From NCBI RefSeq assembly GCF_900141815.1, contig NZ_FQYR01000006.1:1-64000 (forward strand): DNA of 64,000 nt. Direction: 5' to 3'. The notes beneath the pieces were generated by a model that saw only the letters and a list, made by a program, of their open reading frames with translations, was not told the origin of the DNA and ran no database searches. Numbering within the stretch: the stretch's first letter is position 1; each line of letters starts with the position of its first letter. This stretch comes from Rubritalea squalenifaciens DSM 18772 (GTDB lineage Bacteria; Verrucomicrobiota; Verrucomicrobiia; Verrucomicrobiales; Akkermansiaceae). The position numbers and the translations under genes are program-made. Shown here one piece after another: positions 13,858-61,616 of the stretch.

Positions 13858-13870
13858 TAAACCCATACAC
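13858..13870 (+). promoter_or_regulatory. Leader motif (CCATAC type), copy 3
   Basis: TAAACCCATACAC lies 28 bp before the chosen ATG (13886) and is followed by GCAATAA. The sequence after it (AATAACCCTGCAT) also resembles that after copy 1 (CATAAACCCTACTC). Confidence 0.45.
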
Positions 13871-13885
13871 GCAATAACCCTGCAT

Positions 13886-30400: not shown

Positions 30401-30413
30401 GTGTATGGATGTT
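30401..30413 (-). promoter_or_regulatory. Leader motif (CCATAC type), minus-strand copy
   Basis: Read on the minus strand, AACATCCATACAC abuts the ATG at 30400 and matches 10 of 13 positions of the motif before the protease genes at 9042 and 13886. Confidence 0.4.
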
Positions 30414-30694
30414 CAATTTAGGTATTGGACGTGGGCACTTGCCCGATACCTAACAAAGCAAGAAAAGGTTACGCTAAGGTTACGGGGTGGTGGTGAATTC
30501 GCGCAGAAATTGGGAGGTTTGCGTGTCGAGGGATAGTCTGAATGGCTGTAGTTCCTTGGGCTGTATAGCTTGGTGAAGTTTTTGTGTTATAGCTTGTTGT
30601 TGGTTCTGGTGTGCTGAATTTAAAGTTTGAGGTTGTCGAATAGCATACACCTCATGATGAGGTGTCTCTTGAGGCTATCAGGCAAAGGGCACGG
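30414..30694. promoter_or_regulatory. Intergenic region upstream of phosphatase-like gene 1
   Basis: No gene is supported in this stretch between two minus-strand paralogues. It contains a perfect 19-bp palindrome at 30647-30665 but no convincing -35/-10 pair by eye. Confidence 0.35.
30647..30665. promoter_or_regulatory. Perfect 19-bp palindrome, candidate operator
   Basis: ACACCTCAT, a central G, and ATGAGGTGT form 9-bp perfect arms about 247 bp upstream of the ATG at 30400. No T-run follows on either strand, so it is not a terminator. It could bind a dimeric regulator. Confidence 0.35.
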
Positions 30695-30726
30695 AAAAGG
30701 GAATGAGCTTCGTAAAGCCCATTCCC
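30695..30726 (-). terminator. Intrinsic terminator of phosphatase-like gene 2
   Basis: A 12-bp stem (30699-30710 with 30715-30726, one wobble pair) is followed on the minus strand by four T residues (30695-30698), 34 bp beyond the stop at 30760. Confidence 0.75.
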
Positions 30727-30759
30727 CTCTCTAAGTTACGCTATGAAAATGTAGTGAAA

Positions 30760-32379
30760 TTAGTCTCCTGGTACGGTGAGGACCGTGCCGGATTCCGGCT
30801 CCCAAAGTTCCAGGTTGGCTGGGATGTTGAACGGTGTCTCGTCTGTGTTTTGGCCTACCTTGGCTTCTTTGGCGGAAACTTTAACCGTGCGTAGCTCGAT
30901 GCGGTCCTTGTGGACATGAGTCCAGTCAAAGCTGTTGAAGGTGCCAGCGGCGGCGATCCATGGCTTTAGGTCTTGGGCTGCACGCAGAGGTGCACCCCAG
31001 CAGCCCTCACCTGTGTAGACGGTGGCTTTCGGGTCGTTGGAGGATTCAATGAATCCCTCAGTGCTGCCTTCGCCATTGAATGGTCTGACGGGCTTGGTGC
31101 GTTTCACCGCGTGTGAGTCGGACTCAAAGACTAGATCCACGCCGTGCAGGTAGAAAAGGGGAGCCCAGTGGTCATACTCGTCGGTACCTTCTTTTTTAGC
31201 TGCGACAACGGGGCGCATCGGTTTGTGGTATCCGGCGACAAGGTGTCTGGTCTTGCTGGAATGAGAGCGAAGGTCTGTCTGTAGCCAGTCGAGCTGTTCT
31301 CCGCCAGCACTGATCTCAGAGTTCAAGACATAGAAGCGCATCAGATCACGGCTGAAGTTGAGCGCGTAGTAGTTGTCCGGGGTGGTATCAAAGAGATTGT
31401 AGATGGTACTATTGCCGTTTCTCTCGTGGTTGCCCCGATGTGGAAGGATAGGAATGATGCGGCCATCATGGGTGATGGTTTGCTGCCAGTCATCCAGCCA
31501 TTCATGCCACTCGACGGAGATGTCTTGGTTGATCATGTCGCCAGTGAAGGCGACGAAGAGCGGGCGAAGCTTGGAAACGAGGCGGTTGGCTTGTTGACGA
31601 GGTTCCCGGAAGTTTCGTGAATCGCCTCCTGCGCAGAAGCTGAATGGTTTCTGTTCTGTTGCGGCGGTCTGGAAGTAATAGCGGTTGCTGGTGCCTGACT
31701 GGTCTTGGATGACGAAGTAGTACTTGGTGTCTGGCTGGAGTTTTTCCAAGCGGACGAAACAATTGCGCATGTCGAAGTGTTTGATCTCGCGGTCGACGGA
31801 CTTTTTAAAGGTATACTTGGAGGCGTCTGTGCCGTGGTCCTGGGTGTCGTAGTAGACTGTGCCAGCCTCGCCGGAGATTTGCTCCCAGGCTACTGTGGCT
31901 GTCGTGGCAGGGTCATTAACCCAAGTAATGCGGTAGCGGCGGGTAGCGGATGGGGTGCCGCCATCACTGTTTGGTAGAATGAATGCCGCACGGAGGCTGT
32001 ACTCGGCTTTCTTATCCAGCTGGCTGCCTACCGCGATGTGGTAGGTGGCGCCAGGGACGAGTTTAGGATCTGAGTTTGCATCGATGGTGACTAGCTCGTT
32101 GGCTCCTTGTACGAAGGGGCGGAAGTCCCAGTGATCTCTGGTAGGTTTTCCATCCTTGCGGATATAGAGGTCCGTGTCCTGATCTGGCTTTACGTTTGCC
32201 AGTGAGACCTCAAGCCCTTCTGCGTTTTCTGGTACTTGGATCGTGTAATGGACAAGACGTGACTTGTTGACGGCGTCTCTGACGGAGATTCCGTTATTCA
32301 GAGGTGTCTGGGCAGAGACGTTTACGCTGAGTAGCGTAAAGACTGCCGCAGAGATCGTGAGGAAATGACTGCGTTTCAT
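30760..32379 (-). CDS. Secreted purple-acid-phosphatase-like protein, short form (paralogue 2)
   Basis: A 539-residue exported phosphatase-like protein and the minimal version of the family here: signal peptide (about 1-23, ending VSA), one PPC domain, the fibronectin-like domain and the calcineurin-type domain, with no C-terminal accessory modules. It ends at SGTVLTVPGD, exactly where the paralogues continue into PPC or DDG-type modules. Metal motifs are the same: GGDSR, FTGDMINQD, RGNHE, GYHKP and ESDSH. The ATG at 32379 is chosen because it opens directly into the signal peptide; the frame is open further up to 32430 but that stretch has no signal character. It is flanked on both sides by its paralogues, each with its own terminator, so it is probably transcribed alone. 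Confidence 0.8.
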   Translation of the reverse strand: MKRSHFLTISAAVFTLLSVNVSAQTPLNNGISVRDAVNKSRLVHYTIQVPENAEGLEVSLANVKPDQDTDLYIRKDGKPTRDHWDFRPFVQGANELVTIDANSDPKLVPGATYHIAVGSQLDKKAEYSLRAAFILPNSDGGTPSATRRYRITWVNDPATTATVAWEQISGEAGTVYYDTQDHGTDASKYTFKKSVDREIKHFDMRNCFVRLEKLQPDTKYYFVIQDQSGTSNRYYFQTAATEQKPFSFCAGGDSRNFREPRQQANRLVSKLRPLFVAFTGDMINQDISVEWHEWLDDWQQTITHDGRIIPILPHRGNHERNGNSTIYNLFDTTPDNYYALNFSRDLMRFYVLNSEISAGGEQLDWLQTDLRSHSSKTRHLVAGYHKPMRPVVAAKKEGTDEYDHWAPLFYLHGVDLVFESDSHAVKRTKPVRPFNGEGSTEGFIESSNDPKATVYTGEGCWGAPLRAAQDLKPWIAAAGTFNSFDWTHVHKDRIELRTVKVSAKEAKVGQNTDETPFNIPANLELWEPESGTVLTVPGD

Positions 32380-32532
32380 GTGAGTAGAGATGGTGAGGTG
32401 AGGTTGGGGAGCATGTGTGCCCCCATCCATACGTCACAAGATAGCGTATTTTAACGAGATATTATAAGTAATTTGCGCATGATTTATGTGGTCCTGCGTC
32501 CATGCTCTATTTTGAGGCGTATCAACGGGCAC

Positions 32533-32563
32533 AAAAAAATGTGGTCAGGAGGCCTGACCACAT
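32533..32563 (-). terminator. Intrinsic terminator of phosphatase-like gene 3
   Basis: A perfect 11-bp stem (32539-32549 with 32553-32563) and seven A residues at 32533-32539, which read as a T-run on the minus strand, lie 40 bp past the stop at 32603. Confidence 0.85.
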
Positions 32564-32602
32564 GAGGTTATCAAAGAGTTCCTAGCTTACGATCTGCAGA
32601 GA

Positions 32603-35272
32603 TTACTGCGCACTGCGGTTGACCAGCATGTTCAGATCGAAACTGATGTCCGAGCTGGAGGTGTTCTGGTTGTGGATCTCCACAGCAATGAGGTTGTTTC
32701 CTTCTACCAGAAGGCTGCTGGCGACATTCACGGTTTCGGTGGAGTTGTCAGCGGAGAAGGTGGAAGTTCCTGTCTGGTAGTTGATCGGGCCGGATGGCAG
32801 CAGTGAGGTTCTGTGAACTTCTGTGCCGTTGATGTAGATCACCGCGGCATCGTCATAAAGAAGGTCGAACTGAATGCCGGTAATGTTACTGACATTTGTG
32901 ATGTTCACTTCTTTACGGAAGTAATAAGTGATGTGGCTTCCTTGAAGGGTAGTGCTTTCATCACCGTCGCCATAACCAAGCTGGGCGCTGCCGGATGGCC
33001 AGGTCTCAGTAACGCCGGGTTGACGCCATGCTGTACCTTGATCTGAACCGTCGTCCTTGTAGTTCCAGCTAGCGCCGTTGGAGAAAATGGTTTCGTCCGT
33101 GGTGCTCGGCGGAGGAGTTTCTCCAGAGCGAGTGGTCAGCATTTGCAGGTCGAAGCTGATGTCCGAGCTCGTGGTAGAGCGGTTGTGCACTTCTACTGCG
33201 ATGAGGTTGGCTCCCTCTACGAGGAGACTTGGGCTGACGCTGAAGTTCTCCGTGGCGTTGTCACTGGAAGTAGCAGTTGATGGAGTATTGTAACTGAAGT
33301 TAGTTCCGGCATCCATGGTGGCGGTGCGGTGCACTTCGGTACCGTTGATGTAGATGATGGCTCCATCATCAAAGAGCAGACTGAAGTCGAGGTCGGTCAC
33401 GTCAGCAACATTCGTGATGTTGATTTCCTTGCGGAAGTAGTAGGTGAGGTGGCTGCTCTGCAGAGTGGTCGTTTCATCACTATCGCCGTAGCCAAGTTGA
33501 GCACTGCCAGAAGGCCAAGTCTCAGTGACCCCGGATTGACGCCATGCGGTGCCTTGGTCGGAGCCGTCATCCTTGTAGTTCCAGGAGGAACCGAAGGCGA
33601 TGGTCGTTTCCTGGTTACCAGGATTAGGGTTGCCGCCTGTGCTGTCGTCACCCGGAACGGAGAGAACGGTGCCGGAGGCTGGAGTCCAGAGCTGAAGGTT
33701 GCTCGGGATGGCGAACGGGTCGGCATCTGTGTTGCTACCAGTGTTGGCTTCCTGGCTGTTTACTACCACAGTACGCAGGTCGATACGGTCGGAGTATACC
33801 TGTACCCAGTCGAAGCTGTTGAAGGAGCCCGCAGCAAGAGTCCAGTTCTTGCTGTCGTCTGCTGAGCGGAGTGGAGCACCCCAGCAGCCTTCACCTGTGT
33901 AGACGGTAGCATTTGGGTCAGAGGAGGAAACCGCGATGAATCCTTCGTCACTACCTGCACCAGTGGAGGGCATGAGTGGACCTGTACGCTTAACGACGTG
34001 GGAGTCAGACTCGAAGACGAGGTCCATGCCGTGGTCGTAGAAGAGCTGAGCCCAGTTGTTGTATTCGTCAGAACCTTCGGATTTGCCTGACTGGTGTGGG
34101 CGCATTGGTTTGTGGTAGCCAGCACAGAGGTGGCGTGTGGTGCCGCTGTTGCTGTTCAAGTCGTTCTGCAACCAGCTGAGCTGGGTGCCGCCTGCACTGA
34201 CCTCTGAGTTGAGGACATAGAAGCGCATGAGATCGCCACCGATGTTCAGTGCGTAGTAGTTGTTAGAGGTGGTGTCGAAGATGTTGTAGACAGTCTGGTT
34301 GCCACCACTCTCGTGGTTACCACGGTGAGGGAGGATTGGGAAGATGCGGCCATCAGAAGTGATCGTCTCTTGCCAGTCATCCAGCCACTCCTGCCATTCT
34401 ACGGCAACATCACTGTTGATCATGTCGCCGGTGAAGGCAACGAAGAGTGGCCGAAGCTTGCCAACAAGGCGGTTGGCCTGCTGGCGTGGAGTACGGTTGT
34501 TACGGGAGTCACCGCCAGCACAGAAAGTAAATGGTTGAGCTGTGGCCGGAGCGGTGCGGAAGTAGTAACGGTCACTGACGCCTGAGTTGTCTTCGATGAC
34601 GAAGTAGTAGTTGGTGTCAGGGGTGAGGCCGCTGAGGCGTGCGAAGCTGTTATTCATGCCGTGGTAGGAAACCTGGCGGTCGACAGTCTTGCTGAAAGAG
34701 TAGTTTGCAACCGTGGTGCCGTGATCGCTTGTGTCAAAGTGAACGGTGCCTGCGCTGCCAGCGACCTGCTCCCAGCCGATAGTGGCTGTGGTGGACGGGT
34801 CAGTTACCCAAGTGACACGGAGACGGCGTACGTCTGCTGCACCGCCAGGATTGCCGCCACCATTAGGATTGGTGACTGTCGCGGTCAGGGTATAGCCGGC
34901 AGAGCCCTTGTCTGCCGTGTGGATGCCGATGTGGTAGGTAGCTCCAGGGGCAAGCACCGGGTTGGAGTTGGCATCGACAGTAACGGACTCGTTACTGCTG
35001 TTTTGGTATGGGCGGAAGTCCCAGTTACTAGTAGTAGGGTTAGCTCCCTGACGGATGTAAAGGTCAGCATCCTTATTGTTCGTGCCGACGAGGTCGACTT
35101 GAAGACCTGTGCTGGTGGATGGAACTTGGATGGTGTAGTAGTTCCAGTTGTTCTTACGAACTGAGTCTGTGACTGTGGAGCCACTCGTCAGTGAGGTTTG
35201 TGCTGCCGCTACTGCTGTTAGGCAGGCGAAGCTACCGATCATAGCCGGTATCAGGTTTGTTTGTTTGTTCAT
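32603..35272 (-). CDS. Secreted purple-acid-phosphatase-like protein with two DDG-type domains (paralogue 3)
   Basis: An 889-residue exported phosphatase-like protein. Signal peptide about 1-24 (ending AAA), PPC domain (26-130), fibronectin-like domain, and calcineurin-type phosphatase domain (about 245-475) with GGDSR, FTGDMINSD, RGNHE, GYHKP and ESDSH. In place of the second PPC and LamG of paralogue 1 it carries two copies of the domain with YKDDGSDQGTAWR (about 560-715 and 725-887), each ending in SSDISFDL. That domain has an alternating-strand pattern like a jellyroll and occurs in many secreted planctomycete and verrucomicrobial proteins; glycan binding is a guess. The sequence before the ATG (AACACCATA) weakly resembles the CCATAC leader motif. 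Confidence 0.8.
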   Translation of the reverse strand: MNKQTNLIPAMIGSFACLTAVAAAQTSLTSGSTVTDSVRKNNWNYYTIQVPSTSTGLQVDLVGTNNKDADLYIRQGANPTTSNWDFRPYQNSSNESVTVDANSNPVLAPGATYHIGIHTADKGSAGYTLTATVTNPNGGGNPGGAADVRRLRVTWVTDPSTTATIGWEQVAGSAGTVHFDTSDHGTTVANYSFSKTVDRQVSYHGMNNSFARLSGLTPDTNYYFVIEDNSGVSDRYYFRTAPATAQPFTFCAGGDSRNNRTPRQQANRLVGKLRPLFVAFTGDMINSDVAVEWQEWLDDWQETITSDGRIFPILPHRGNHESGGNQTVYNIFDTTSNNYYALNIGGDLMRFYVLNSEVSAGGTQLSWLQNDLNSNSGTTRHLCAGYHKPMRPHQSGKSEGSDEYNNWAQLFYDHGMDLVFESDSHVVKRTGPLMPSTGAGSDEGFIAVSSSDPNATVYTGEGCWGAPLRSADDSKNWTLAAGSFNSFDWVQVYSDRIDLRTVVVNSQEANTGSNTDADPFAIPSNLQLWTPASGTVLSVPGDDSTGGNPNPGNQETTIAFGSSWNYKDDGSDQGTAWRQSGVTETWPSGSAQLGYGDSDETTTLQSSHLTYYFRKEINITNVADVTDLDFSLLFDDGAIIYINGTEVHRTATMDAGTNFSYNTPSTATSSDNATENFSVSPSLLVEGANLIAVEVHNRSTTSSDISFDLQMLTTRSGETPPPSTTDETIFSNGASWNYKDDGSDQGTAWRQPGVTETWPSGSAQLGYGDGDESTTLQGSHITYYFRKEVNITNVSNITGIQFDLLYDDAAVIYINGTEVHRTSLLPSGPINYQTGTSTFSADNSTETVNVASSLLVEGNNLIAVEIHNQNTSSSDISFDLNMLVNRSAQ

Positions 35273-36845: not shown

Positions 36846-39800
36846 ATGAGAACCACTTTTCAGAAAAACGGGCTTCGCGCCTTAGGAGGATCTATTGTCT
36901 TGTTTACTAGTATTGCAGTCATGGCTGAGGAGGTGAAGTGGCCACCTGTCAAGTCGGCCTCGATCCAGTTGAGCAAGAAAGGAGAGGCTCAGAAAGCTGC
37001 GGCTGGTAAAGAGCTGTGGGAGGCGAGTCAGGCGCACATGGTGGCCAAGGGAAGCGCGCAAGGATTGCTACTGCTAGAACCTGGAGGAAAGATTACTCGG
37101 GAGCTTCCTGTTGACGTTGCCTCGGAGAGTTACCTGTGGCTGTCTACAGAAATAAGAGGAGTTGTGGGTAAGGGTGATAAGCCGGGTTCTGTGATTTTAT
37201 CCGTGTCTGAAGCTGGTCAGAGAGAGGTTCTTACTTGGCGTACGGAGTCTGTTACTCAGACGGCTCAAAAATCAGAGAGTATAGGCATCAGGGCGCAAGC
37301 GCCTTATCCGCATAACCGGCGTGTGGCGGACCTTGCCGTGGATGGCAACCGTGGGAGCGAGTGGGTTTCCGTTTATCCTAGTGACTGGCAGAAAGAATTG
37401 GCTGTAGAAATCGAGCTCGACAGTGCGGAGATGATAGGTGGTTTGGCCTATCTCCCGAGACAGGGCTCATTGAGTTACGGTCAAATATACAGCTATGAAA
37501 TTCAGGTCCGACCCAGCGCGAATGATCCATTCGTGACCGTCGCCAAGGGAGACTGGGATGAGACGAAGAAAGAAAAGCTAGCTCAGTTTGATAAAGAGGT
37601 GTTAGCAAAAACGATCCGCTTGGTCGGGCATAAGACCAAGTCAAATGCTAAGCCTGGTCAGAAAGCTCAGATTGTTCTCTCCGCCTCAGAGATTCGCCCT
37701 TTGTATGCTGGGGAGCAAAAGGAAAAGGCCAAGAGTCAGCTCTTGAAGTCGGTGTTAGGTGCAGAGGATATTTCCCGCCTTCAGGGAAAGAAGGTGAGCG
37801 TGGAGATCCAGAATGTGGGGAGTGTTCCAATTTTGTTAGGTAAGCTTTCTCATGGGCTTCAGCCATTAGATCTGCCAAAAAGGAAATACAAGCCGCGTCA
37901 CAGCCAGTTCATCGACTTGAATGCCATTGGGTTGGTGTGCAGGACATGTCCCGCAGAGCAGTGGCCTGTTTCTCAAGTGTTTTCCATTACGGAGGGCCAG
38001 CCTTCCAGTAAGTCTGAATTAAAGCTCGGAGATTTGATTGTCGGGGTTGGTGGTGAAGATCTGCAAGCACCCGTGCTAAATGCCACACGTTATCCTTTGG
38101 CAGAGGAATGGATGAAGCGTCATCACGAGGCCGTCATTGCCCGTCATTATTTCAAGGCTCTGCAAGGTGGTGGCGTGCTGAGTTTTGAGGTGATTGATCC
38201 GCGCAGTGGTCAGCGCACTGAAAAGGTGGTGAAGCTGGATCATGTGAGCGGTTCTGACTATCAAGGATTCCCGTTGGCAGGTGCGGCTGCTGACCAACTT
38301 TATCAGGACTTGATTGACCGGATTGTAAGAGACCAGAAGCCAGATGGCTCCTGGGGGACCATGCCAGCCAACAGTGATGAGATGTATGGAATATTGGCTC
38401 TCTTGGGAACGAAGGATCCGCAGCATCGTGAGCGTATCTACAAGGCTGTGGATTATTTGCTGAAGCACGAAAAGCCCAGTGCGCATTCCAAGTATCTGGG
38501 CTTGTGGGGGACCGCCTTTCAGACGATTGCTTTGGGGGAATACGCCTTGGCCACAGGAGATCCAAGGGCGGTGGCGTGGCTCGACCAGATTTGTACAGGG
38601 ATCACACAGGGCGGCCATGTGAATAAGAACTACTATTTTACTTACGGGCATGACCTGCGGGTCCTGCCTTACGGATCAGGCGGCTTGATTGCTCCTTTGT
38701 CCCACTTTGTGGTTGGTGATGCCTTGGCTGTTAGGCTGGGTGTGAAGTCCAGAGCTTGGGATTATGCGGGGCCCTATATCAAGGCAGCCTGGGCGGGTAA
38801 GCGTCCCTATGGTCAGCAAGCGATTGGCTATGGTGCGCCCTCGAGTGGTGCTGGTGCGGACCAGGCTTGGTGCCGCAGTGGCCTGATTGGTGTGGCTGCT
38901 ACGATCTATGATGTAGAGCCTGAAATGCGCAAGGGTATCGCCGGCTTTATGAGAAATCAATATGGCTTCATGCGCCGCAGTCATGGTTACGGAAACATTG
39001 GCTGCTACCTGGGGCTGATGGGCTTGGCCGGTACGGACAAGGAAGCTTTTGAGGAGGTCATGGAGGCGATAGCTCCCATCATTGCCATGCAGTGGAGGCG
39101 TGGACAGGGGCTGCTCCATGTTGAGCCGCAAATCACCAATGTTGCCTGTGCAACAGGCAAGGGTAGTGAGGATGCCTATAGTTATGCGATGGCTGTTGTC
39201 CTGAGTATCAGAAACCAGGGACTTCATGTGACAGGCGGAAAAGAGGTCAACTGGATGCCCTATCCCAAGGGCACGAAGCCTCCGGCTCCACAGCTGATTT
39301 GGAAGGAAGGTGGAGTGGATGTAGCTAGTGCCTCGATGTTTAACTTTGTCACCGCCGTTCATACGACTGATGGGACTCAACCTACCGCCACGAGCCCAGA
39401 GTGGAAGCCGGGAATGCTGGTCGAGAGCGAGACCCTGACGGTAGCATACAAAACCAAGGAAGGTGTCGTGGGAAATGCTTCTACCATTACCAGTGATGCT
39501 GGTGATAGTCCGGCCCGCTGGAAAGTAGTCGAAGCTGATCTTGGGTTTCCCAAGGAAATTGTTGGGCTGGACTCGGACGCGTTTTCTCTGGAGAGAGCGC
39601 AGTATGCATTCGACGGGAATCCTACCACGGCGATGCGGAGCAACACGTCTAATACCAACAAGGGGCAAAAGCTCTGGACGGTTACAGTGGATCGAAGAGG
39701 CGCGGCCGCCGGAAAGAGGTCCGGCATTCTATCCATTACCTTTCCCCGAGCTCAGAAAGAGCGCAAGACCGTCGATGACTCCGTGAAACATGTCTGGATC

Positions 39801-39971
39801 GAAACCAGTCAGAATGGAACCACTTGGACGACTGTGTTCCGCGGTGAAGTTCCCGAGGACCGTAAGATTGTTCCAGGCGGGCAGCTAAAGTCACGCTACA
39901 TGAGGTTTCACCTGAGCAGCTATGGAGGGAATCTGATTATGCCGGATCCCGTGTTTAAATTCGCGAAGTAG
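36846..39971 (+). CDS. Secreted alpha/alpha-toroid protein with discoidin-like and PDZ-like domains
   Basis: A 1041-residue exported protein with signal peptide about 1-27. Order of recognisable parts: F5/8 type C (discoidin)-like domain with AVDGNRGSEWVS (about 155-285); a PDZ-like segment with LKLGDLIVGVGGEDL (about 378-465); a helical region (466-800) with QKPDGSWGTMP and repeated glycine-rich turns like the alpha/alpha toroid of prenyltransferase/squalene-cyclase folds; a segment like the chitobiase C-terminal domain, TTDGTQPTATSPEW (about 815-885); and a second discoidin-like domain with AFDGNPTTAMRSN (890-1041). The PDZ plus toroid layout resembles the DUF6288 family, for which no activity is known to me. 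The DxDD or QW motifs expected of a true terpene cyclase were not found, so it is more likely glycan-binding or glycan-acting. It precedes the operon at 40102 by 130 bp. Confidence 0.6.
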   Translation: MRTTFQKNGLRALGGSIVLFTSIAVMAEEVKWPPVKSASIQLSKKGEAQKAAAGKELWEASQAHMVAKGSAQGLLLLEPGGKITRELPVDVASESYLWLSTEIRGVVGKGDKPGSVILSVSEAGQREVLTWRTESVTQTAQKSESIGIRAQAPYPHNRRVADLAVDGNRGSEWVSVYPSDWQKELAVEIELDSAEMIGGLAYLPRQGSLSYGQIYSYEIQVRPSANDPFVTVAKGDWDETKKEKLAQFDKEVLAKTIRLVGHKTKSNAKPGQKAQIVLSASEIRPLYAGEQKEKAKSQLLKSVLGAEDISRLQGKKVSVEIQNVGSVPILLGKLSHGLQPLDLPKRKYKPRHSQFIDLNAIGLVCRTCPAEQWPVSQVFSITEGQPSSKSELKLGDLIVGVGGEDLQAPVLNATRYPLAEEWMKRHHEAVIARHYFKALQGGGVLSFEVIDPRSGQRTEKVVKLDHVSGSDYQGFPLAGAAADQLYQDLIDRIVRDQKPDGSWGTMPANSDEMYGILALLGTKDPQHRERIYKAVDYLLKHEKPSAHSKYLGLWGTAFQTIALGEYALATGDPRAVAWLDQICTGITQGGHVNKNYYFTYGHDLRVLPYGSGGLIAPLSHFVVGDALAVRLGVKSRAWDYAGPYIKAAWAGKRPYGQQAIGYGAPSSGAGADQAWCRSGLIGVAATIYDVEPEMRKGIAGFMRNQYGFMRRSHGYGNIGCYLGLMGLAGTDKEAFEEVMEAIAPIIAMQWRRGQGLLHVEPQITNVACATGKGSEDAYSYAMAVVLSIRNQGLHVTGGKEVNWMPYPKGTKPPAPQLIWKEGGVDVASASMFNFVTAVHTTDGTQPTATSPEWKPGMLVESETLTVAYKTKEGVVGNASTITSDAGDSPARWKVVEADLGFPKEIVGLDSDAFSLERAQYAFDGNPTTAMRSNTSNTNKGQKLWTVTVDRRGAAAGKRSGILSITFPRAQKERKTVDDSVKHVWIETSQNGTTWTTVFRGEVPEDRKIVPGGQLKSRYMRFHLSSYGGNLIMPDPVFKFAK

Positions 39972-40101
39972 GGTAGGAGCATTCTTTCTGCACCTTTTGG
40001 ATCATCCTTGTCTGGATGGAGTGTGGTGTTATGAAGTGGGGAATGGCGGAATCTGTAAAAATAGCTGCCAGTACCCATTTCATTAACTTGCTACACGCAA
40101 A

Positions 40102-41970
40102 ATGAGAATACTATTAACTCTACTCTGCTTAGGAACCCTATCCGCATTGGGTGTCCTGGGATCTGAAACGGCAGACCGCTCACTATTCACAGAATATGGT
40201 GTCTGTACCTCGATGAAAAACTATGAGTCTGTTAGAAGGTCGGGATACGATTATATTGAAACCGGTGTGCGGGGACTACTGAAGCCTGAAAGCAGTGATG
40301 CTGAGGTCGTAGAAGAGTTTCAGAAGATCAAAGAAGCCAAGCTTCGTATTTTAGCCTGTAATTCGTTTTTGCCAGCGAAGTTCAAGTGTGTGGGGCCAGA
40401 GGCGAATCATGAAGAGATTCTTCAGTATGCGGAGGTGACTTTCCGCCGCGCCAAGGAATTAGGGGTGAAGGGGATCGTCTTCGGTAGTGCCAAGGCCCGT
40501 AAGATGCCAGTAGGGGTTCTGCGTGAGGACGCGGTGAAGCAATTTGTTGATCTACTAAAAAAGATGGCTCCTCTAGCTGAAGCCCAGGGAGTGGAGATCT
40601 GGATCGAACCGCTCAATACTGAAGAAGATAATTTTATCAATACCATGGTGCAGGGCAAAGAGATTGTCGCTGCGGTAGATCATCCCTCTGTCGGGTTAAC
40701 CTGTGACTTGTTTCACATGGCGCGCAATGGAGAGGGGCCTGAGAATATCATCATAGCCGGAAAATACATCCGTCACTGCCACATCGCGGAGAAGGAAAAG
40801 AGAACTGCTCCTGGAATGAAGGGTGATGATTTTACCCCGTATCTGAAAGCGCTGAGAAAAGTTGGGTACCATGCTGAGATCTCGATGGAATGTGGCTGGG
40901 ACGATTTTGAGAAAAGACTGCCCATGGCTCTGGATTACCTAAAGCAGCAGGTTAATGATCACTCGACGACTAAGCGTGGCATGTTGACCTTCAACAACCT
41001 GCCGCTGGGGAGTCTGCGCAAGCCACTCGTGATGCGGACCTTCATGCCCTTTGCCGGTCTGGAACCCTCAGTCTTACCGAATCATCACAAGGGTGCGAAG
41101 TCCCCGAAGTACAACCCCGCCTTGGGCAAGGATGTGGAGGGTGAGTATCTACCAATCTCAGGCTTGCCTGCTGCGTTCGGGGTAAACTACGGCAAGCATC
41201 TGTCTTATTGCTGGGATACCGTGGAATGCCGATTGATGTATGCCTGGAGCGATGGCTTCTTGGATATGGAGAACTATTGGGGGCAACCGGAGCGTGGTAA
41301 TCGCCAGTCTTTTGGGTATGTTCCAGAGCTGAGAGGTGACATGTTCTACCGGGCTCAAGGAAGTCACCCGGTGACGATCAATGGTACCTCTGTGTCCTCA
41401 CCGCAATATCAGGGTTATGCGGTGAAAGGGGATGTGTTAGATTTTGTCTATAAGGTGGATGGCGCAGAGATACATCAGCAGGTAAGGCCGGCCAAGCAGG
41501 CGAATAGGTTTGAAATTACACTAACTCTCCAAGGGTCTGGTAAGCTGGGATATCGTGAAGAGAGGGGAGTCAGTGTGGAAGTGATTTCGGACAAGGAAGT
41601 AAAAGTGGTTTACCAAGGTGCTGTCATTGCACGCTATGAGGCTGCGAAAGCGGAGGATATTCTGAAAGGGAAGGCAACTGCGAAGATGGGCGAAAAGGTC
41701 TTTGCGAAGATGGCCTGCATTACTTGCCACTCGCTGGATGGCTCGAAGAGCCATGGTCCTACTTTACAAGGATTACATGGGAGCAAACGTGCCATCACAG
41801 GGCTTAAAGAAAAGGTGCTGGCGGATGATGCGTACATCAAGGAGTCGATCAATAACCCTAACGTCAAAGTTGTGGAGGGTTACCCAGAGAATTACATGCC
41901 GGTGTTCAAGATGAACCCAAAAGAAGTGGAGAGTTTGCTGCTCTTTATCAAAACACTGAAGAAAGACTAA
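40102..41970 (+). CDS. Exported sugar isomerase/epimerase-like TIM barrel fused to cytochrome c
   Basis: A 622-residue exported fusion. After the signal peptide (about 1-20), residues 25-285 form a xylose-isomerase-like TIM barrel (AP endonuclease 2 superfamily). The usual metal ligands are in order: E169 (IEPLN), D202 (CDLFH), H227 (CHIAEK) and E263 (SMECGW). Residues 295-520 are a beta-rich domain (PLGSLRKPLVMRTFMPF, SYCWDTVECRLMYAW) known next to cytochromes in planctomycete-type proteins. A C-terminal cytochrome c domain has CITCH at 539-543 and a likely Met ligand in NYMPVF. An extracytoplasmic isomerase tied to a heme domain suggests redox coupling to the next gene, a sorbosone-dehydrogenase-like propeller starting 4 bp after the stop. 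Substrate unknown; keto-sugar chemistry is inferred. Confidence 0.8.
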   Translation: MRILLTLLCLGTLSALGVLGSETADRSLFTEYGVCTSMKNYESVRRSGYDYIETGVRGLLKPESSDAEVVEEFQKIKEAKLRILACNSFLPAKFKCVGPEANHEEILQYAEVTFRRAKELGVKGIVFGSAKARKMPVGVLREDAVKQFVDLLKKMAPLAEAQGVEIWIEPLNTEEDNFINTMVQGKEIVAAVDHPSVGLTCDLFHMARNGEGPENIIIAGKYIRHCHIAEKEKRTAPGMKGDDFTPYLKALRKVGYHAEISMECGWDDFEKRLPMALDYLKQQVNDHSTTKRGMLTFNNLPLGSLRKPLVMRTFMPFAGLEPSVLPNHHKGAKSPKYNPALGKDVEGEYLPISGLPAAFGVNYGKHLSYCWDTVECRLMYAWSDGFLDMENYWGQPERGNRQSFGYVPELRGDMFYRAQGSHPVTINGTSVSSPQYQGYAVKGDVLDFVYKVDGAEIHQQVRPAKQANRFEITLTLQGSGKLGYREERGVSVEVISDKEVKVVYQGAVIARYEAAKAEDILKGKATAKMGEKVFAKMACITCHSLDGSKSHGPTLQGLHGSKRAITGLKEKVLADDAYIKESINNPNVKVVEGYPENYMPVFKMNPKEVESLLLFIKTLKKD

Positions 41971-41974
41971 GGAG

Positions 41975-43462
41975 ATGAAAACTACACTGAATTATCTAAC
42001 GGGATTAGTGACGCTCGTTTCTTCTGTGTGCCTGGCTGCACCTGCGTTTGAAGACTATTACCAAATCGAAAGAATCGATTTGCCTCAGGATGTTCCGCCG
42101 GAGGTCGGGGCAGTGCAGTTTGACTCAGAGGGGAAACTCTATGTGGCGCTGCGCCGCGGGGATATCATCACGGCGGTTCCAGGCGAGCAGCCTGACCAGT
42201 TCCAGTGGAAGCTCTTTGCGACAGGGTTCCATAACCCATGCGGCATGGAGGTCGTTGCTCCAGGTCATATTGTGGTGAGCCAGATGCCTGAGCTCACGGA
42301 TGTGAAGGATACGGACGGAGATGGCGTAGCCGATTCTTATCGTTCACTGACCAGCGAGTGGGGAGTCAGTGGCAACTACCATGAAACGAATGAGATCTGC
42401 CCGGATGGCGAGGGCGGCTACTATATTGCGGTGGGAACTGCCTCACACAATGGGCCTACTTTTGAGTACCTTCGTGGGGACTATTCCAAGATTGGCAGAC
42501 GTGGGCGTAATTTTTCCTCAGTGAAGTGGAAGGGCTGGGTGCTCCATTACAAGAAGGACGGCTCGGTAGAGCCCTTTGCCAAAGGCTTCCGCATGCACAA
42601 TGGCATCATGCGCGACAAGGATGGCAACATCTGGTGTGGGGACAACCAAGGCGACTGGCGGGCGACGACGCCGATCTACCATGTGGAGAAAGACCATTTC
42701 TACGGGCATCCCTCCAGCTTGGTCTGGGACCCGAAGTGGCCCGAGGGTAAAGATCCTCTGAAGATGTCTCTAAAGGAGATCAATGAGATGCGCACCCGGG
42801 CAGCCGTTTTGGTGCCTTACAAGGAATTCAACCGTTCAGCGTCCGAGCCTATCCAGATTCCAGAGGGCTACGGTCCGTTTGCGGGACAGATCCTGGTGTT
42901 GGATAACAATGGGCAGCGGATCACCCGGCTGATGCTGGAGAAGGTGGACGGAAAATTCCAGGGCGCTTGCACGCATTTTATCGATAGTAAGCAATTGCTC
43001 TCCGGTGGGAACCGGGCGGTGTTCAGTCCTGATGGAAAATACCTCTACACAGGACACACAGTGCGGGGGTGGAGCCGCCCTGCTGAGGGGCTGATGCGGA
43101 TCAGTCTGAAAGAGAAGATTCCTTTCGATGTGAAGATGATGCGTCTGACGAAGGAGGGCTTTGAGCTGGAGTTTACGCAGGATTTGAAAGCGGATACTGC
43201 GGCGCTTGCTGACTTTAAGGTGCATTCTTACCGCTATGAGCCAAAGTGGTCTTATGGTGGTCCCAAGATGGGTCAGCGTAAGGAGGCCGCGGTCTCGATG
43301 AAAATGACGGCAGGGAACAAGCTGAAGCTTGATATTTCAGGGTTGGAGCCGGGCAGGGTCTACCAGCTGGATCTCGCCGAGGGCGCTGATCTGGAGAGCC
43401 AATCGGGCCAGAAATTGCTCAATCGCAGTTTTTGTTACACCTTAAATTCTCTCATTCCGTAA
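41975..43462 (+). CDS. Exported sorbosone-dehydrogenase-like beta-propeller
   Basis: A 495-residue exported protein with signal peptide about 1-21 (ending CLA). The body is a six-bladed propeller of the glucose/sorbosone dehydrogenase type: EVGAVQFDSEGKLYVALRRGDI, GFHNPCGMEVV, DTDGDGVADSYRSL (calcium loop), ETNEICPDGEGGYYIAVG, GFRMHNGIMRDKDGNIWCGDNQGDW and HPSSLVWDPKWPEG. In characterised relatives this fold holds PQQ; cofactor ligands cannot be assigned here with certainty. There is no CxxCH motif, so electrons could pass to the cytochrome c domain of the protein encoded 4 bp upstream (inference). GGAG lies directly against the ATG with no spacer, so coupling to upstream translation is likely. 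The C-terminal 100 residues form a separate beta domain ending the protein. Confidence 0.75.
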   Translation: MKTTLNYLTGLVTLVSSVCLAAPAFEDYYQIERIDLPQDVPPEVGAVQFDSEGKLYVALRRGDIITAVPGEQPDQFQWKLFATGFHNPCGMEVVAPGHIVVSQMPELTDVKDTDGDGVADSYRSLTSEWGVSGNYHETNEICPDGEGGYYIAVGTASHNGPTFEYLRGDYSKIGRRGRNFSSVKWKGWVLHYKKDGSVEPFAKGFRMHNGIMRDKDGNIWCGDNQGDWRATTPIYHVEKDHFYGHPSSLVWDPKWPEGKDPLKMSLKEINEMRTRAAVLVPYKEFNRSASEPIQIPEGYGPFAGQILVLDNNGQRITRLMLEKVDGKFQGACTHFIDSKQLLSGGNRAVFSPDGKYLYTGHTVRGWSRPAEGLMRISLKEKIPFDVKMMRLTKEGFELEFTQDLKADTAALADFKVHSYRYEPKWSYGGPKMGQRKEAAVSMKMTAGNKLKLDISGLEPGRVYQLDLAEGADLESQSGQKLLNRSFCYTLNSLIP

Positions 43463-43498
43463 TTTTTGAAATCTGGCAGCGTAATCATAGTTTGTACG

Positions 43499-44698
43499 AT
43501 GCCAGATACTCTCTTAACGAATGAGGCTGCGGAACCATCTGCAGTGGATGACATCCAGGTGACCGAGGCTTTGGATAAAGCCTCGGTGGAGAAGGAGGAG
43601 CGTAAGTCTAAAAGGCTGCGCTCGCTGGATGCATTGCGTGGTTTTGATATGTTTTGGATCGTGGGTGGTTCAGCTCTTGTGGCTGCGCTGGCAAAGTTCA
43701 CTCAGTGGCCATGGCTGGAGAGGATGGCTCAGGAGTTTCAGCATGCGAAGTGGGTAGGCTTCACCTTTTATGATCTGATCTTCCCGCTGTTTCTCTTTCT
43801 TGCCGGGGTGGCCATGCCCTATTCTCTGGGGGGCAAATTGGAGCAGGGGGCATCTAGGCTCCGGCTGACGCTGAAAGTCTTCAAGCGAGTGCTTTTGCTG
43901 GTCTTGCTGGGAATCGTCTACAATGGGGGCTTGGCGCTCAAACCGCTGGCTGAGACGCGTATCTGCAGCGTGCTGGGCTTTATTGGAGTGGCCTATGGTA
44001 TCGCAGCTCTGGTGTTTATCTACAGTAAGCCACGGTTTCATATTGCCTGGGTGATCGGCCTGTTACTGGGTTATTGGATTTCTTTGCAGCTATTCGGGGC
44101 ACCGTTTTACGAAGGTGGCACCTATACTCCAGAGGGATCGTTAGCGGGTTATGTGGACAGGAATCTCTTGCCCTGGAAGGTCTATGCGCTGCATTTTGAC
44201 CCTGAGGGGGTGCTGGGGATGATTTCTGCCGCAGCCCTGCCCTTGGGGGGTGCGATTGTCGGGCAGCTGCTGCGTGCGGACAAACCACGCGACTGGCAGA
44301 AGGTGATGGTGCTGCTATTGGCAGTGCCCATCCTGTTTGGAATTGCCGCTTTGTGGAGCGGCTCCATGCCCTTCATCAAGAAGATGTGGACCAGCTCCTT
44401 TGTAGTGCATTGCATGGCGTGGAGCGTGCTGCTGACAGCGGTCTTTTATCTGGTGATTGATGTCTTGGGGCTGTGGCGCTGGTCCTACTTTTTTATCATC
44501 ATCGGCCTGAATCCGATCACGATTTATCTGGGTACGCGCATCATTGATTTCTGGGGAGCGAGTCAGTTCCTCTTTGGCGGGCTGGCTGGCAAGTACGAGC
44601 AACCCTTGCAAGGGGTCATACTCGCTGCGGCCTATTGTCTGACCTGGTGGATGGTGCTATGGGCCATGCATCGTAAGAAAATGTATCTACGAGTCTGA
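43499..44698 (+). CDS. HGSNAT-like membrane acyltransferase (DUF5009/COG4299 type)
   Basis: A 399-residue integral membrane protein with about ten helices. The N-terminal cytoplasmic tail is followed by RLRSLDALRGFDMFWIVGG, the signature of the heparan-alpha-glucosaminide N-acetyltransferase-like family, then FYDLIFPLFLFLAGVAMPYSL and RVLLLVLLGIVYNGG. Members move acyl groups across a membrane onto sugars; the human enzyme acetylates glucosamine of heparan sulfate. The ATG at 43499 is used; the frame is open to a TTG at 43466, which would add 11 residues of no clear value. It follows the propeller gene by 36 bp and shares 1 bp with the next start (TGATG), so it belongs to the operon and may acetylate or deacylate a sugar handled by the two exported enzymes. 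Confidence 0.8.
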   Translation: MPDTLLTNEAAEPSAVDDIQVTEALDKASVEKEERKSKRLRSLDALRGFDMFWIVGGSALVAALAKFTQWPWLERMAQEFQHAKWVGFTFYDLIFPLFLFLAGVAMPYSLGGKLEQGASRLRLTLKVFKRVLLLVLLGIVYNGGLALKPLAETRICSVLGFIGVAYGIAALVFIYSKPRFHIAWVIGLLLGYWISLQLFGAPFYEGGTYTPEGSLAGYVDRNLLPWKVYALHFDPEGVLGMISAAALPLGGAIVGQLLRADKPRDWQKVMVLLLAVPILFGIAALWSGSMPFIKKMWTSSFVVHCMAWSVLLTAVFYLVIDVLGLWRWSYFFIIIGLNPITIYLGTRIIDFWGASQFLFGGLAGKYEQPLQGVILAAAYCLTWWMVLWAMHRKKMYLRV

Positions 44699-45273
44699 TG
44701 AGTAAGGAAGTGACACACGATCTGATGCCTCCTGTGAAGAGCCCCAATGGCTGGGCGGATACGCTGGTGGGCATATTGGTGCGCACCGTATTGGTGACGG
44801 CCCTGGTAGTGGGCGTGATCTGGGGGCTGCGCTGGTGGGCGATGTACAAGCCGGTGATTCATCCGGATGCTGCTGGCCAAGTCGAGTTGAAGGCCAAAGA
44901 TGCCCAGCTGCATGGCGAGCCTGAGATCCGCTACAATCTTTACGAAGGTAAACCAAACATCGGCTGGTGGAATGAGGAATCACAGTACCTTTCCTGGAAG
45001 ACGAAAGGCGTAAGTGCTGGTTCCTATCAAGTGGTGCTGGAATATTCCCGTGCCCCCGAAGCCAAACTTCAGCTGGAGCTTAAAGCTGGTGAGCAGACTT
45101 TGCTAGGCGAGGTGCCTCCTACAGGAGGCTGGGGCAAATGGAGCGAGCTCTCTCTTGGGGTGCTGGAGCTGAGTTCTAGCGAGGTATCGGAACTTGAATT
45201 GAGAGCCATAACTCCGGACGGAGGTGAGGTCGTCAATCTGGTGAGGGTGACTCTCACTTCGGTAGGTGAATAA
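44698..45273 (+). CDS. Membrane-anchored beta-sandwich protein
   Basis: A 191-residue protein with a 20-residue cytoplasmic tail, one membrane helix (about 24-47, LVRTVLVTALVVGVIWGL) and an extracytoplasmic domain. The ectodomain, with YLSWKTKGVSAGSYQVVLEYSR, GEQTLLGEVPPTGGWGKW and LELRAITPDG, follows the strand pattern of the beta-sandwich often attached to alpha-L-fucosidases and sulfatases as a CBM-like domain. No catalytic motif is visible. The start overlaps the acyltransferase stop by 1 bp, and a large terminator hairpin follows, so it ends the operon. It may hold a glycan near the membrane for the acyltransferase; this is inference. Confidence 0.65.
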   Translation: MSKEVTHDLMPPVKSPNGWADTLVGILVRTVLVTALVVGVIWGLRWWAMYKPVIHPDAAGQVELKAKDAQLHGEPEIRYNLYEGKPNIGWWNEESQYLSWKTKGVSAGSYQVVLEYSRAPEAKLQLELKAGEQTLLGEVPPTGGWGKWSELSLGVLELSSSEVSELELRAITPDGGEVVNLVRVTLTSVGE

Positions 45274-45362
45274 TTTTTCGAATTATTTGCTGAATCGAGA
45301 AAGAATCCCCTGTCTGATCAGTATAGAAATGCGGGCAACTTAGCCCTTGGGTTTTATTGGCT

Positions 45363-45422
45363 GGCCGCGTTGACTTCAGATTTTATGGGTTTTTTCTGAA
45401 GCTGACGCGGCCGCTTTCTTTT
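45363..45422 (+). terminator. Large intrinsic terminator of the isomerase-cytochrome operon
   Basis: A 17-bp imperfect stem (45363-45379 with 45396-45412, two wobble pairs and one mismatch) with a 16-nt T-rich loop is followed by GCTTTCTTTT. Confidence 0.7.
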
Positions 45423-45452
45423 CCAGCATTCAGTTACGCCTGTGAGGCTACG

Positions 45453-45513: not shown

Positions 45514-47541
45514 TTAGTGGGAAAGTGAAGCAGCAGTGATGGCTACCGCTTTGTCTGCACCCGGTGCTTTCCAGAGGAGTGGTGCTTTCGTGGCCTTACC
45601 ATTAGCTCGGACGGTGAGCGTGAATGGGTGGTAGCCAGCGGTGAGCTTGAGGCTGTTTGTTGCGTGTGCTGGTTCCGGTGAGTCGGTATCCAGGGTGAGG
45701 ATGTCATGGATGCGGAGCACGCCATTGACACCTTCGGCAAACTCGAAGCCGTAGGAACCGTCTTTCTCCACCTTGAGGTAGCCGCTGAACTCGATATTGC
45801 CTTTGGTCTCGGAGATGCTGAGGTCACCGGCAGTGGTTGTCTTGGCATCTGTCAGGCGATAGGCGTATGCGTATTGCTTGTCGCTTGCTTTCTTGGTCAC
45901 ACCGGGAGTGGTCTTCGTGATGTCGAGGGCGGCCACAGCGAGTTTGTCGTATGGACGCTTTGCTGATTTTTCTACTCCGTGAAGGCGGGAGACGGCTTTG
46001 ATCCAGTGTTCCTGAGAAGGGATGCCCGGCTTGCCGGCGAGGTTGTTTTCCTCACGAGGATCTTTGGTGACGTCAAATACCATGAAGGGGGTGTCAGGCT
46101 TGGTGGTGTTGTAGCGGATAGCCTTGAGCTTACCCTCGCGGACGACCTGCATTTGACCACGCTTGGCGCCTTGACGGGATTTCGGGAACTCAGCGTATTT
46201 CGGAGTGCCACCACCAACCGTGTATTCCACGTAGATAGTAGATGGTTCCTGCTCGCCTTTGCCCGTCAGTGATGGGATGAGTGAGGTGCCGTCAGCGATG
46301 GCTGGAATCGGTGTGCCCGCTGCATCACAGAAGGTGGCCATCCAGTCGTTCATCTGGGATGGTAGCTCGGTTTCGCTACCAGCCTTGATCGCTTTGGGCC
46401 AGCGGACGATGGCGCCCGGGCGAATACCTCCCTCCCAGCAATCACGCTTGATGCCAGTGAAGGGGCCGAAGCTATCGAAGAATCCAGGCTGAAGGTTTTC
46501 CTTGATGTAAGATTCCTTGGATGGGCCGTGGTCACTGGTGAATACAATGAGGGTGTTCTCATCCATGCCGAGGTCCTTGAGGGTCTGGATAATGTCCTGC
46601 ACCGAGTTGTCGATACGGCGGATGGAAGAGGCATAGCGCTTGGAAACGTTGGTCCAAGGAACGAGTGGCGTGCTCGGGTCGCTATCATGATCATACATCT
46701 TGTCCGCGTAGTCAGGGTGGATGTAGTTGTCCGGGCTGTTGTTAGCCGTGTTGATCATTCGACCTTTCTTGCCGATCCACTGGACACCACCTTTGACGCC
46801 ATAGCCTTTCGGGTAAGGAGAGGTAGCGATTTGTGTCGCTGCGTGTGGGGTGTCGTAGGACAGGAAGAGGAAGAAAGGTTTGTCTGAAGATTCTTTCTTG
46901 TGGTCTACGAGCCACTTCTTGGTCGCCGCAGTGAAGAGGTCCGTGGTGTAGCAGCCTTTCAGGCCTTCGCTGATTTCATTGTCCTGCTCCCAGATTTCGG
47001 TGCGCTTGTTTTTGAAGTGGATTTGGTCGTAAGGGTAGTGCTCGTGCCCATCGCGGTGGCGTACGCCTCCCAGGAAATAGTCGAATCCGCGCTTGGTCGG
47101 GTAGGATGGCCACTCGGTGGAGTTTTTTCCTTTGCCTTGCAGGCCCCACTTGCCGATGAGAGCGGTATGGTAGCCCGCCTGCTTGAGTGTGGTGCCAAGC
47201 GTTGGCTGGTTTGGCATGACCTTGTCGAACTGGTTGTCACGGATCGGTGCGTTGCCCTGGTGGCGGCCCATGAAAAGGGAGGCACGGGATGGTGCGCAAA
47301 CGGGAGCCGCACAGTAGTGTGCATGGAGAAGCATGCCTTCAGCGGCCATCTGGTCGATGTGTGGTGTGCTGAACCAAGGCTGGTCTGGCTTGTTGGCTTC
47401 CTTGCGTTGGTTTTGCCAAAAGACACCGACGTCACCATATCCAAGATCATCGCAGAAGATGAAGAGGATGTTTGGCTTCTCCTGGGCTACCAGGGGTGTT
47501 GAGACTAGTGCTGATAAAAGCAGGTTCTTTAAGATGCGCAT
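45514..47541 (-). CDS. Exported sulfatase with C-terminal PA14-like/beta domain
   Basis: A 675-residue type I sulfatase. Signal peptide about 1-19 (ending LVA), then NILFIFCDDLGYGDVG with metal ligands D31 and D32, and CAPSR at 82-86, where C82 would be turned into formylglycine by a maturase (not in this window). LIGKWGLQG and FVFLSYDTPHA-like segments complete the arylsulfatase A-type core, and VFTSDHGPS is the later metal site. The core ends near 560; the rest is an extra beta domain with KVEKDGSYGFEFAEGVNGVLRI, like PA14-type glycan-binding domains. The ATG at 47541 directly opens the signal; the frame is open to 47619 but that part lacks sense. It probably removes sulfate from algal polysaccharide or mucin-like glycan. 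It is divergent from the phosphoesterase at 47694. Confidence 0.9.
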   Translation of the reverse strand: MRILKNLLLSALVSTPLVAQEKPNILFIFCDDLGYGDVGVFWQNQRKEANKPDQPWFSTPHIDQMAAEGMLLHAHYCAAPVCAPSRASLFMGRHQGNAPIRDNQFDKVMPNQPTLGTTLKQAGYHTALIGKWGLQGKGKNSTEWPSYPTKRGFDYFLGGVRHRDGHEHYPYDQIHFKNKRTEIWEQDNEISEGLKGCYTTDLFTAATKKWLVDHKKESSDKPFFLFLSYDTPHAATQIATSPYPKGYGVKGGVQWIGKKGRMINTANNSPDNYIHPDYADKMYDHDSDPSTPLVPWTNVSKRYASSIRRIDNSVQDIIQTLKDLGMDENTLIVFTSDHGPSKESYIKENLQPGFFDSFGPFTGIKRDCWEGGIRPGAIVRWPKAIKAGSETELPSQMNDWMATFCDAAGTPIPAIADGTSLIPSLTGKGEQEPSTIYVEYTVGGGTPKYAEFPKSRQGAKRGQMQVVREGKLKAIRYNTTKPDTPFMVFDVTKDPREENNLAGKPGIPSQEHWIKAVSRLHGVEKSAKRPYDKLAVAALDITKTTPGVTKKASDKQYAYAYRLTDAKTTTAGDLSISETKGNIEFSGYLKVEKDGSYGFEFAEGVNGVLRIHDILTLDTDSPEPAHATNSLKLTAGYHPFTLTVRANGKATKAPLLWKAPGADKAVAITAASLSH

Positions 47542-47693
47542 GATTTCTAGGTGTTGAGTGACACTGTTACACGAGAAGATGACGCAAATTGTCACGTCGT
47601 TAACCTTTTTGCAAAACATTGATGGATTTTGACACGTTTCTTTTATTTAATTGAAAGTTTTCTTCGGGAAACTAGGTTCTATTGATCAGAGTT

Positions 47694-58690: not shown

Positions 58691-58707
58691 CGGTTAATAA
58701 ACTACAG

Positions 58708-59175: not shown

Positions 59176-59252
59176 AGGTGTGAAGTGGAGGGAAGCATAG
59201 AATGGGGGAGAGGGGAAGAATAAGGATGAGGGGATTGCGCACGATGGTGCGG

Positions 59253-59831: not shown

Positions 59832-59995
59832 GGTTTTGCAAAACGGGGTTCACTGTCCTGTTTAGCACGCCATGCTTTGGTTGGAAAGATTAAATGCTGG
59901 AATAGCAGCATTTGTGTGTTCTCTACAATTTGTGTCTTAGGTGTACAAGTATGGCTGCTTCGCGGGGTATAGTGGGTGTAATCAGGTTATTTATG

Positions 59996-61540: not shown

Positions 61541-61616
61541 CTAACTTCTATGAAGCGGTTCCTTTAGGGTGCCGCTTTGGCTGGACAGGTTTGCGTTTAT
61601 GGGGTTTATTTTTCGT

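Follow-up and report, generated by a model that had tools for sequence, protein, structure and literature searches.

The window analysed here is a 64-kb stretch (64,000 nucleotides) of the genome of Rubritalea squalenifaciens DSM 18772, which is assembled in 17 contigs totalling 4.32 Mb, and it contains a compact run of four genes, here called P2 to P5, preceded by a longer gene, P1. The initial annotation had proposed that P2 to P5 isomerise, oxidise and acylate a single sugar outside the cytoplasm, with P1 as a possible glycan-binding partner. Our analysis instead supports P2 and P3 as a real and recurring two-gene module, in which an isomerase-type barrel, a dehydrogenase-type propeller and a c-type heme travel as a unit. 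The features of the locus are as follows:

P1, 36846..39971, + strand: protein with F5/8 type C and DUF6288 matches (Pfam).
P1–P2 intergenic stretch, 39971..40102, + strand: very stable hairpin right before the P2 start codon (folding and genome copy count).
P2, 40102..41970, + strand: signal peptide (by eye), xylose-isomerase-like triosephosphate isomerase (TIM) barrel, DUF6797-like domain and mono-heme c-type cytochrome.
P3, 41975..43462, + strand: exported-looking beta-propeller with the fold of pyrroloquinoline quinone (PQQ) sugar dehydrogenases, without heme; H136 and R206 conserved.
P4, 43499..44698, + strand: NagX/HGSNAT-like transmembrane acetyltransferase with conserved catalytic histidine (H82 of the product started at ATG-43499).
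P5, 44698..45273, + strand: N-terminal membrane anchor (by eye) and CBM6/CBM35-like sandwich.
Intrinsic terminator closing the four-gene cluster, 45359..45423, + strand (RNA folding).

The reading frames and the RNA folding agree with the gene map, the spacing and the single large terminator that had been described for this cluster. Specifically, P2 and P3 are separated by 4 bp, with a Shine-Dalgarno-like AGGAG of P3 sitting on the P2 stop codon (TAAGGAGATG); the gap between P3 and P4 is 36 bp when counted to the ATG at 43499, a TTG at 43466 also lying in the open frame; and P4 and P5 overlap by 1 bp (TGATG). Folding of 45345-45425 gives the terminator a free energy of -33.6 kcal/mol (z -5.68) and a U-rich tail, and its absence from the list of our promoter/terminator scan reflects a loop longer than that scan allows. 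The promoter scan itself returned 6 sites, fewer than the 9.1 in shuffled sequence, and was not used. P2–P3 and P4–P5 are likely to share one transcript. The P1 stop codon lies 130 bases upstream of P2, and the hairpin stretch between them (39971-40102) folds to -50.5 kcal/mol (z -5.02) and is present once in the genome; its role may be to set P2 apart from P1 or to control P2, possibly as an attenuator or as a terminator of P1.

P2 is one unbroken frame of 622 codons. Its barrel (about residues 28-286) matches AP_endonuc_2 at 113.9 bits against a Pfam cut-off of 31.1 and carries a metal-ligand quartet at alignment positions E169, D202, H227 and E263, and its cytochrome matches Cytochrom_C at 35.3 bits (cut-off 21.3) with a single CxxCH motif, CITCH, at Cys539-His543, so that the described union of an isomerase-like barrel with intact E/D/H/E ligands and a c-type heme is confirmed. 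The DUF6797-like region extends over about residues 296-520. When a predicted model of P2 (m906ab3d82998) is compared with solved structures, the nearest neighbours of the barrel are ketose 3-epimerases, and YcjR, a 3-keto-glucoside 4-epimerase, also matches; the barrel occupies all of these matches, leaving the DUF6797 fold without placement. P2 falls short of the equivalog cut-off for IolO, a 5-keto-L-gluconate epimerase (86.5 vs 300 bits, NCBIfam). It also has E175, six residues past the first ligand, and R234, which we take to be the second glutamate and the arginine of the epimerases and which fit the pattern of a ketose epimerase-type barrel.

P3 has no CxxCH anywhere in its sequence. 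Its predicted model is confident (mean predicted local distance difference test score, pLDDT, 89.7), and its best match is the PQQ sugar dehydrogenase 3a9g (Z 29.4, root-mean-square deviation 2.9, 296 residues aligned). The first six rows of the structure list are PQQ-type sugar dehydrogenases at Z 27.1-29.4, Escherichia coli Asd standing at 27.1, with soluble glucose dehydrogenase (sGDH) entries down to 23.1. The earlier description of a heme-free, dehydrogenase-like propeller is therefore borne out as to the missing CxxCH and, judging from the predicted model, as to the fold. In a weak hhalign match to E. coli YliI (Asd), H136 aligns with a histidine and R206 with an arginine that are presumably the catalytic base and a PQQ ligand, and these two residues are kept in 41 of 43 and in all 43 aligned propellers, respectively. 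The mapping comes from this one weak match; a profile search of solved structures mostly matched designed 'Pizza' propellers via single repeats.

The evidence for the module comes from its recurrence. An 18-row DUF6797-cytochrome alignment, scanned against genome contigs, yielded 78 loci on 78 named contigs, a set that is a sample because the scan works via short conserved patterns, and a profile re-scan recovered the DUF6797-cytochrome in 77 of them. A propeller lies immediately downstream on the same strand in 71 of these 77 loci, and the six without one are all at contig ends with at most 557 bases remaining; the adjacency of P2-type and P3-type genes is far beyond chance. A same-strand barrel adjoins the module in 28 of the 77 loci, 17 times upstream and 11 times downstream of the propeller, and the 5 remaining barrel matches in these loci all lie on the opposite strand. 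Because the first barrel profile contained barrels beside the module, the count was redone with a profile of eight sequences, namely seven paralogues from the host genome and the P2 barrel itself, which gave 27 adjacent barrels in the 78 loci, 17 of them upstream and 10 downstream; barrels elsewhere were again confined to the same 5 loci, all on the opposite strand. One of the upstream barrels, at locus L074 in another genus (L numbers are our locus handles), is part of an unbroken 631-codon barrel–DUF6797–cytochrome fusion. In Rubritalea profundi the barrel and the cytochrome are separate genes, as in every upstream-barrel locus except L074, and the three-part version is spread over separate genes in both R. 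profundi and Pelagicoccus sp. SDUM812005. What looked like a 1.7-kb insertion in the R. profundi cytochrome gene is a run of N and was rejected. Three Roseibacillus-type loci (L103, L117 and L123) share, shortly before the module, an RmlD-like gene and a small gene whose product looks, by eye, like a lipoprotein.

It is informative to examine where the adjoining barrels come from. A tree of 38 barrels, with 16 starred and 5 open among its 35 inner branches and with long branches for L074 and the host's own paralogues, places the two fused barrels, those of P2 and L074, as sisters (97/88). The wider group of 12 around the P2 barrel (83/91, not starred) includes L134 and L138 (both Planctomycetota) as well as L136, L139 and L141, all of them beside the module, and five members that lie away from it. 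The group of L110, with the barrel upstream of the module, and the Opitutales group, with the barrel downstream, are each a well supported clade (100/99). At least three barrel clades therefore adjoin the module, on either side. By eye, twin-arginine signals are found on the adjacent barrels of L134, L136, L138, L139, L141 and R. profundi, and Sec-type signals on P2 and the L074 barrel.

The same core is also found in other builds. The host genome encodes four further DUF6797 proteins (L181-L184, on contigs C9, C4 and C5): L181 is a cytochrome c–DUF6797 gene followed by a propeller gene; L182 and L183 each join a 3-keto-disaccharide hydrolase, DUF6797 and a propeller in one protein behind a PA14–cytochrome c gene; and L184 holds DUF6797, propeller and cupredoxin in one protein. 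The Pfam DUF6797 model matched only 8 of 194 genomes of the phylum and therefore sees the family only in part. Among 17 matches examined outside the host genome, two of them (L219, L220) below the Pfam cut-off, 13 have the propeller within the same protein and the other 4 have it encoded by a gene that neighbours or overlaps theirs; a cytochrome c or cupredoxin domain is present in 13 of the 17 DUF6797 proteins. Four of them (L212, L214, L217, L218) unite barrel, DUF6797, propeller and cupredoxin in a single chain of 1150-1355 amino acids, two with an additional laminin-G-like domain. With such a single-chain protein as query, 68 of 285 genomes of the class match at E 1e-60, and in at least 19 of the 285 one open frame holds both a barrel-like segment and a propeller, a count made by hand with at most two candidates scored per genome. 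Elsewhere the barrel's place is taken by ThuA (L077), or a propeller–DUF6807 fusion (L078, 1559-4000) precedes a barrel gene that shows no visible signal peptide; propeller genes of similar length to that of L078 occur at other Opitutales loci.

Our preferred reading, to which we give about even weight, is that P2–P3 represents, in two genes, a redox module found in Verrucomicrobiota and Planctomycetota that couples extracytoplasmic, cytochrome-linked sugar oxidation to rearrangement of the resulting keto-sugar, with oxidation at C3 favoured. Exported P3, its export being judged by eye, would act outside the cytoplasm on a sugar or glycoside, oxidising one of its hydroxyls by means of a quinone-type or not-yet-known cofactor, giving most plausibly a 3-keto-glycoside. 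The c-heme of P2 would take up the electrons from P3 and hand them to the respiratory chain, and the metal-dependent barrel of P2 would rearrange the keto-sugar near the dehydrogenase, more probably by epimerisation than by elimination, with DUF6797 linking the parts as a docking or scaffold domain. P4 and P5 would be a separate acetyltransferase pair on a shared transcript. A redox role for the propeller is suggested because cytochromes or cupredoxins recur beside it, oxidation of a sugar or alcohol because of the fold of P3, and a keto-sugar product because its partners are a 3-keto-disaccharide hydrolase, ThuA and barrels near keto-sugar epimerases. Epimerisation is preferred to elimination because the residues of P2 fit it and the catalytic histidine of AtOGE and CGE is absent.

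Several observations weigh against this reading. No same-strand barrel adjoins the module in 49 of the 77 loci, including L069-L072, which have the closest relatives of P3, and the barrel is therefore optional. The position of H227 is glutamine in the L110 group and glutamate in the rows of L136, L139 and L141, as well as in five solo barrel rows; the counts from this ligand alignment include one wrong-strand row, L005, which is named among the differing rows. The barrels of the L110 and Opitutales groups have no visible signal peptide and may therefore act in the cytoplasm. Likewise, the barrels of the four single-chain proteins fall below the Pfam cut-off (21.8-30.1 vs 31.1 bits) and have asparagine or other residues at the metal-ligand positions, so they may bind rather than catalyse. 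The DUF6797 (PF20601) match of P2 is marginal, at 20.1 bits against a cut-off of 24.9 in hmmscan; another profile search gave 22.4 bits, or 26 when neighbouring matches in the frame are counted. Four of the 17 DUF6797 proteins outside the host genome (L205, L207, L208, L216) have no electron-carrier domain in the protein itself, their neighbouring genes not having been scanned. For P3, the alignment to E. coli Asd is a weak profile match (probability 42.6%), in which methionine takes the place of the asparagine that follows the PQQ-site arginine. Finally, a PqqC-type gene was not recognised in 145 genomes of the family in a search whose controls gave no signal either, the host genome has no TENA/PqqC-family match, and PqqE was matched there only far below the cut-off. 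E. coli Asd provides a precedent for the use of external PQQ.

The strongest alternative, which we regard as doubtful, is that P3 is a metal-dependent lactonase or hydrolase propeller, or a scaffold, and that the cytochrome is fed by another enzyme, for example an oxidoreductase of the Gfo/Idh or glucose-methanol-choline (GMC) type. The unrecognised PQQ synthesis would fit, as would the matches of lactonases and diisopropylfluorophosphatase (DFPase) to the P3 model at Z ~23, and a Gfo/Idh gene does follow the propeller at L134. However, those matches rank below the PQQ sugar dehydrogenases that fill the top six structure rows, the histidine of Asd is conserved, and electron-carrier domains recur in the DUF6797-propeller proteins, all of which argue for a dehydrogenase.

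A second alternative concerns the barrel, which could be a beta-eliminase of 3-keto-glycosides like CGE, OGE and LgdB1, making the module a periplasmic oxidise-then-cleave substitute for a glycosidase. We consider this unlikely, although a 3-keto-disaccharide hydrolase and ThuA occupy the place of the barrel in paralogues. Leu171 of P2 stands two residues after the first metal ligand, E169, where the OGE/CGE-type enzymes have their catalytic histidine, and E175 and R234, presumably of the epimerase type, are both present. The accessible part of the source on AtOGE places that histidine two residues past the first metal ligand (the spacing of His132 and His134; PMC10628242). In favour of the eliminase, elimination of 3-keto-glycosides by enzymes annotated as sugar phosphate isomerases is described in the parts available of PMC10628242 and PMC7676230.

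The full four-gene pathway, in which one sugar bound by P1 is isomerised, oxidised and acylated outside the cytoplasm, is improbable. Tight gene packing and the single terminator speak for it, as does P4, whose identity as an HGSNAT-like acyltransferase holds: it scores 288.1 bits against NagX, below the equivalog cut-off of 480, and its H82 (in the product from ATG-43499) aligns with the catalytic H297 of HGSNAT. The available portion of PMC9007349 proposes an amino sugar in the periplasm as the target of HGSNAT/NagX. Against this, none of the 78 module loci gave a homologue of P4, P5 or P1 on profile re-scanning. Of the 72 in which a propeller was matched, the sequence continues past it for 1.5 kb or more in 59 and for 3 kb or more in 52, and at least 3 kb precede the cytochrome gene in 65 of the 78. 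Of 145 family genomes, 52 have a NagX homologue and 21, by hand count, have one together with a DUF6797-cytochrome, many of the genomes being fragmented; outside this window the nearest such pair on one contig is 15 kb apart, and P3 and P4 were seen adjacent in this genome only. In three genomes of one genus, P4–P5 homologues are adjacent while the 11-15 kb read there lack homologues of P2 and P3, so the pair looks like a unit of its own that here sits behind P2–P3. P4 therefore probably functions apart from the module. P5, with an N-terminal stretch that is hydrophobic by eye and with matches to CBM_35_2 and CBM_6 that stay below their cut-offs, is more plausibly a partner of P4 than of P2 or P3.

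Conserved co-occurrence had been set beforehand as the test of the four-gene proposal, and it is found for P2–P3 but not for the larger set. Hence the joint pathway survives in part: the barrel and the dehydrogenase-type propeller do form a unit with the c-heme, as the 71 adjacencies, the 28 adjoining barrels and the single-chain fusions attest, whereas acylation as a third step and the membrane-anchored sandwich protein P5 as a pathway partner fall away. P1 was likewise rejected as a glycan-binding partner, given its absence from the 78 loci and the strong hairpin between P1 and P2. Last, that the P2 fusion is an artefact of annotation or assembly is highly improbable, since the frames of P2 and L074 are both unbroken, even though barrel and cytochrome are separate genes in R. 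profundi and the other upstream-barrel loci.

Beyond the cluster, a sulfatase gene (45514-47619, - strand) whose product matches SGSH_C and has a PA14-like end converges on it, and pairs of NagX-like and carbohydrate-binding module (CBM) genes at L167 and L168 also lie near sulfatase-like genes, recalling the pairing of sulfamidase and HGSNAT in heparan breakdown. Elsewhere in the window, three neighbouring genes at 27356-35272 (- strand) share a similar pre-peptidase C-terminal-like start, and the two of them that were scanned match purple acid phosphatase N-terminal domains. The window also encodes two giant proteins (4658-8617 and 13832-17983), similar to each other and exported-looking, that have reprolysin-like peptidase, CBM96 and cadherin domains. 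A galactokinase (- strand), a second sulfatase and a periplasmic-binding-type regulator at 57518-62696 possibly form a galactan-related stretch.

It is also worth considering what the module may mean for its hosts. Verrucomicrobiota and Planctomycetota have numerous cytochrome and propeller genes of no known function, and a core of propeller, DUF6797 and electron carrier accompanied by keto-sugar enzyme families gives such genes a testable role: oxidising a sugar outside the cell, taking its electrons, and then breaking or rearranging it. More tentatively, and with some doubt, we suggest an undescribed respiratory sugar route across these two phyla, in which a propeller dehydrogenase with an unrecognised cofactor would deliver electrons via DUF6797 to a cytochrome c or cupredoxin and produce keto-sugars outside the cytoplasm, to be cleaved or rearranged by interchangeable and repeatedly recruited tail enzymes (TIM barrel, 3-keto-disaccharide hydrolase, ThuA). 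If so, the module would replace 3-dehydrogenases of the GMC type or those of the Gfo/Idh type that depend on nicotinamide adenine dinucleotide (NAD), conserving energy at the oxidation step. In the literature searched, from which subscription papers were largely out of scope, DUF6797 is not mentioned, and the matches listed for combinations of barrel, cytochrome, cupredoxin, propeller and Planctomycetes-Verrucomicrobia-Chlamydiae (PVC) bacteria do not describe the module.

Comparison with known systems places the parts of the cluster individually. P4 resembles NagX/HGSNAT in its score and its aligned active-site histidine and differs in missing the equivalog cut-off and in being paired with an anchored CBM-like protein. 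The P2 barrel has the fold and the metal-ligand pattern of the ketose 3-epimerases, IolO and YcjR, but P2 looks exported and is fused to a cytochrome. P3 shares the fold and the aligned histidine and arginine of Asd, sGDH and the AA12 pyranose dehydrogenases, but at ~12-16% identity, with a C-terminal region past residue 380 that lies outside the match, with the asparagine-to-methionine change at the PQQ site, and with the heme supplied by P2. 'Planctomycete-specific' cytochromes have, in the accessible part of PMC5615132, been suggested to have a role in carbohydrate use without a mechanism being given; the PVC-type heme-binding CxxCH proteins (TIGR02604) have a related propeller (42.5 bits with P3) and a c-type heme in the same bacteria, but P3 stays below their cut-off of 122.2 bits and lacks CxxCH, the heme being on the barrel–DUF6797 protein instead. 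The Caulobacter LacABC system, as far as the available part of PMC9007349 describes it, is a periplasmic lactose 3-dehydrogenase that works with a DUF1080 3'-ketolactose hydrolase, and it is similar in that a sugar is oxidised outside the cytoplasm and a second exported protein takes the 3-keto-sugar. Furthermore, DUF1080 (PF06439) is itself fused to DUF6797-propeller proteins in the same genome as P2 and P3. The difference is that the lactose dehydrogenase component LacA is a GMC flavoprotein, whereas the dehydrogenase here would be a propeller, and that the role of second enzyme falls here to a TIM barrel joined to the cytochrome.

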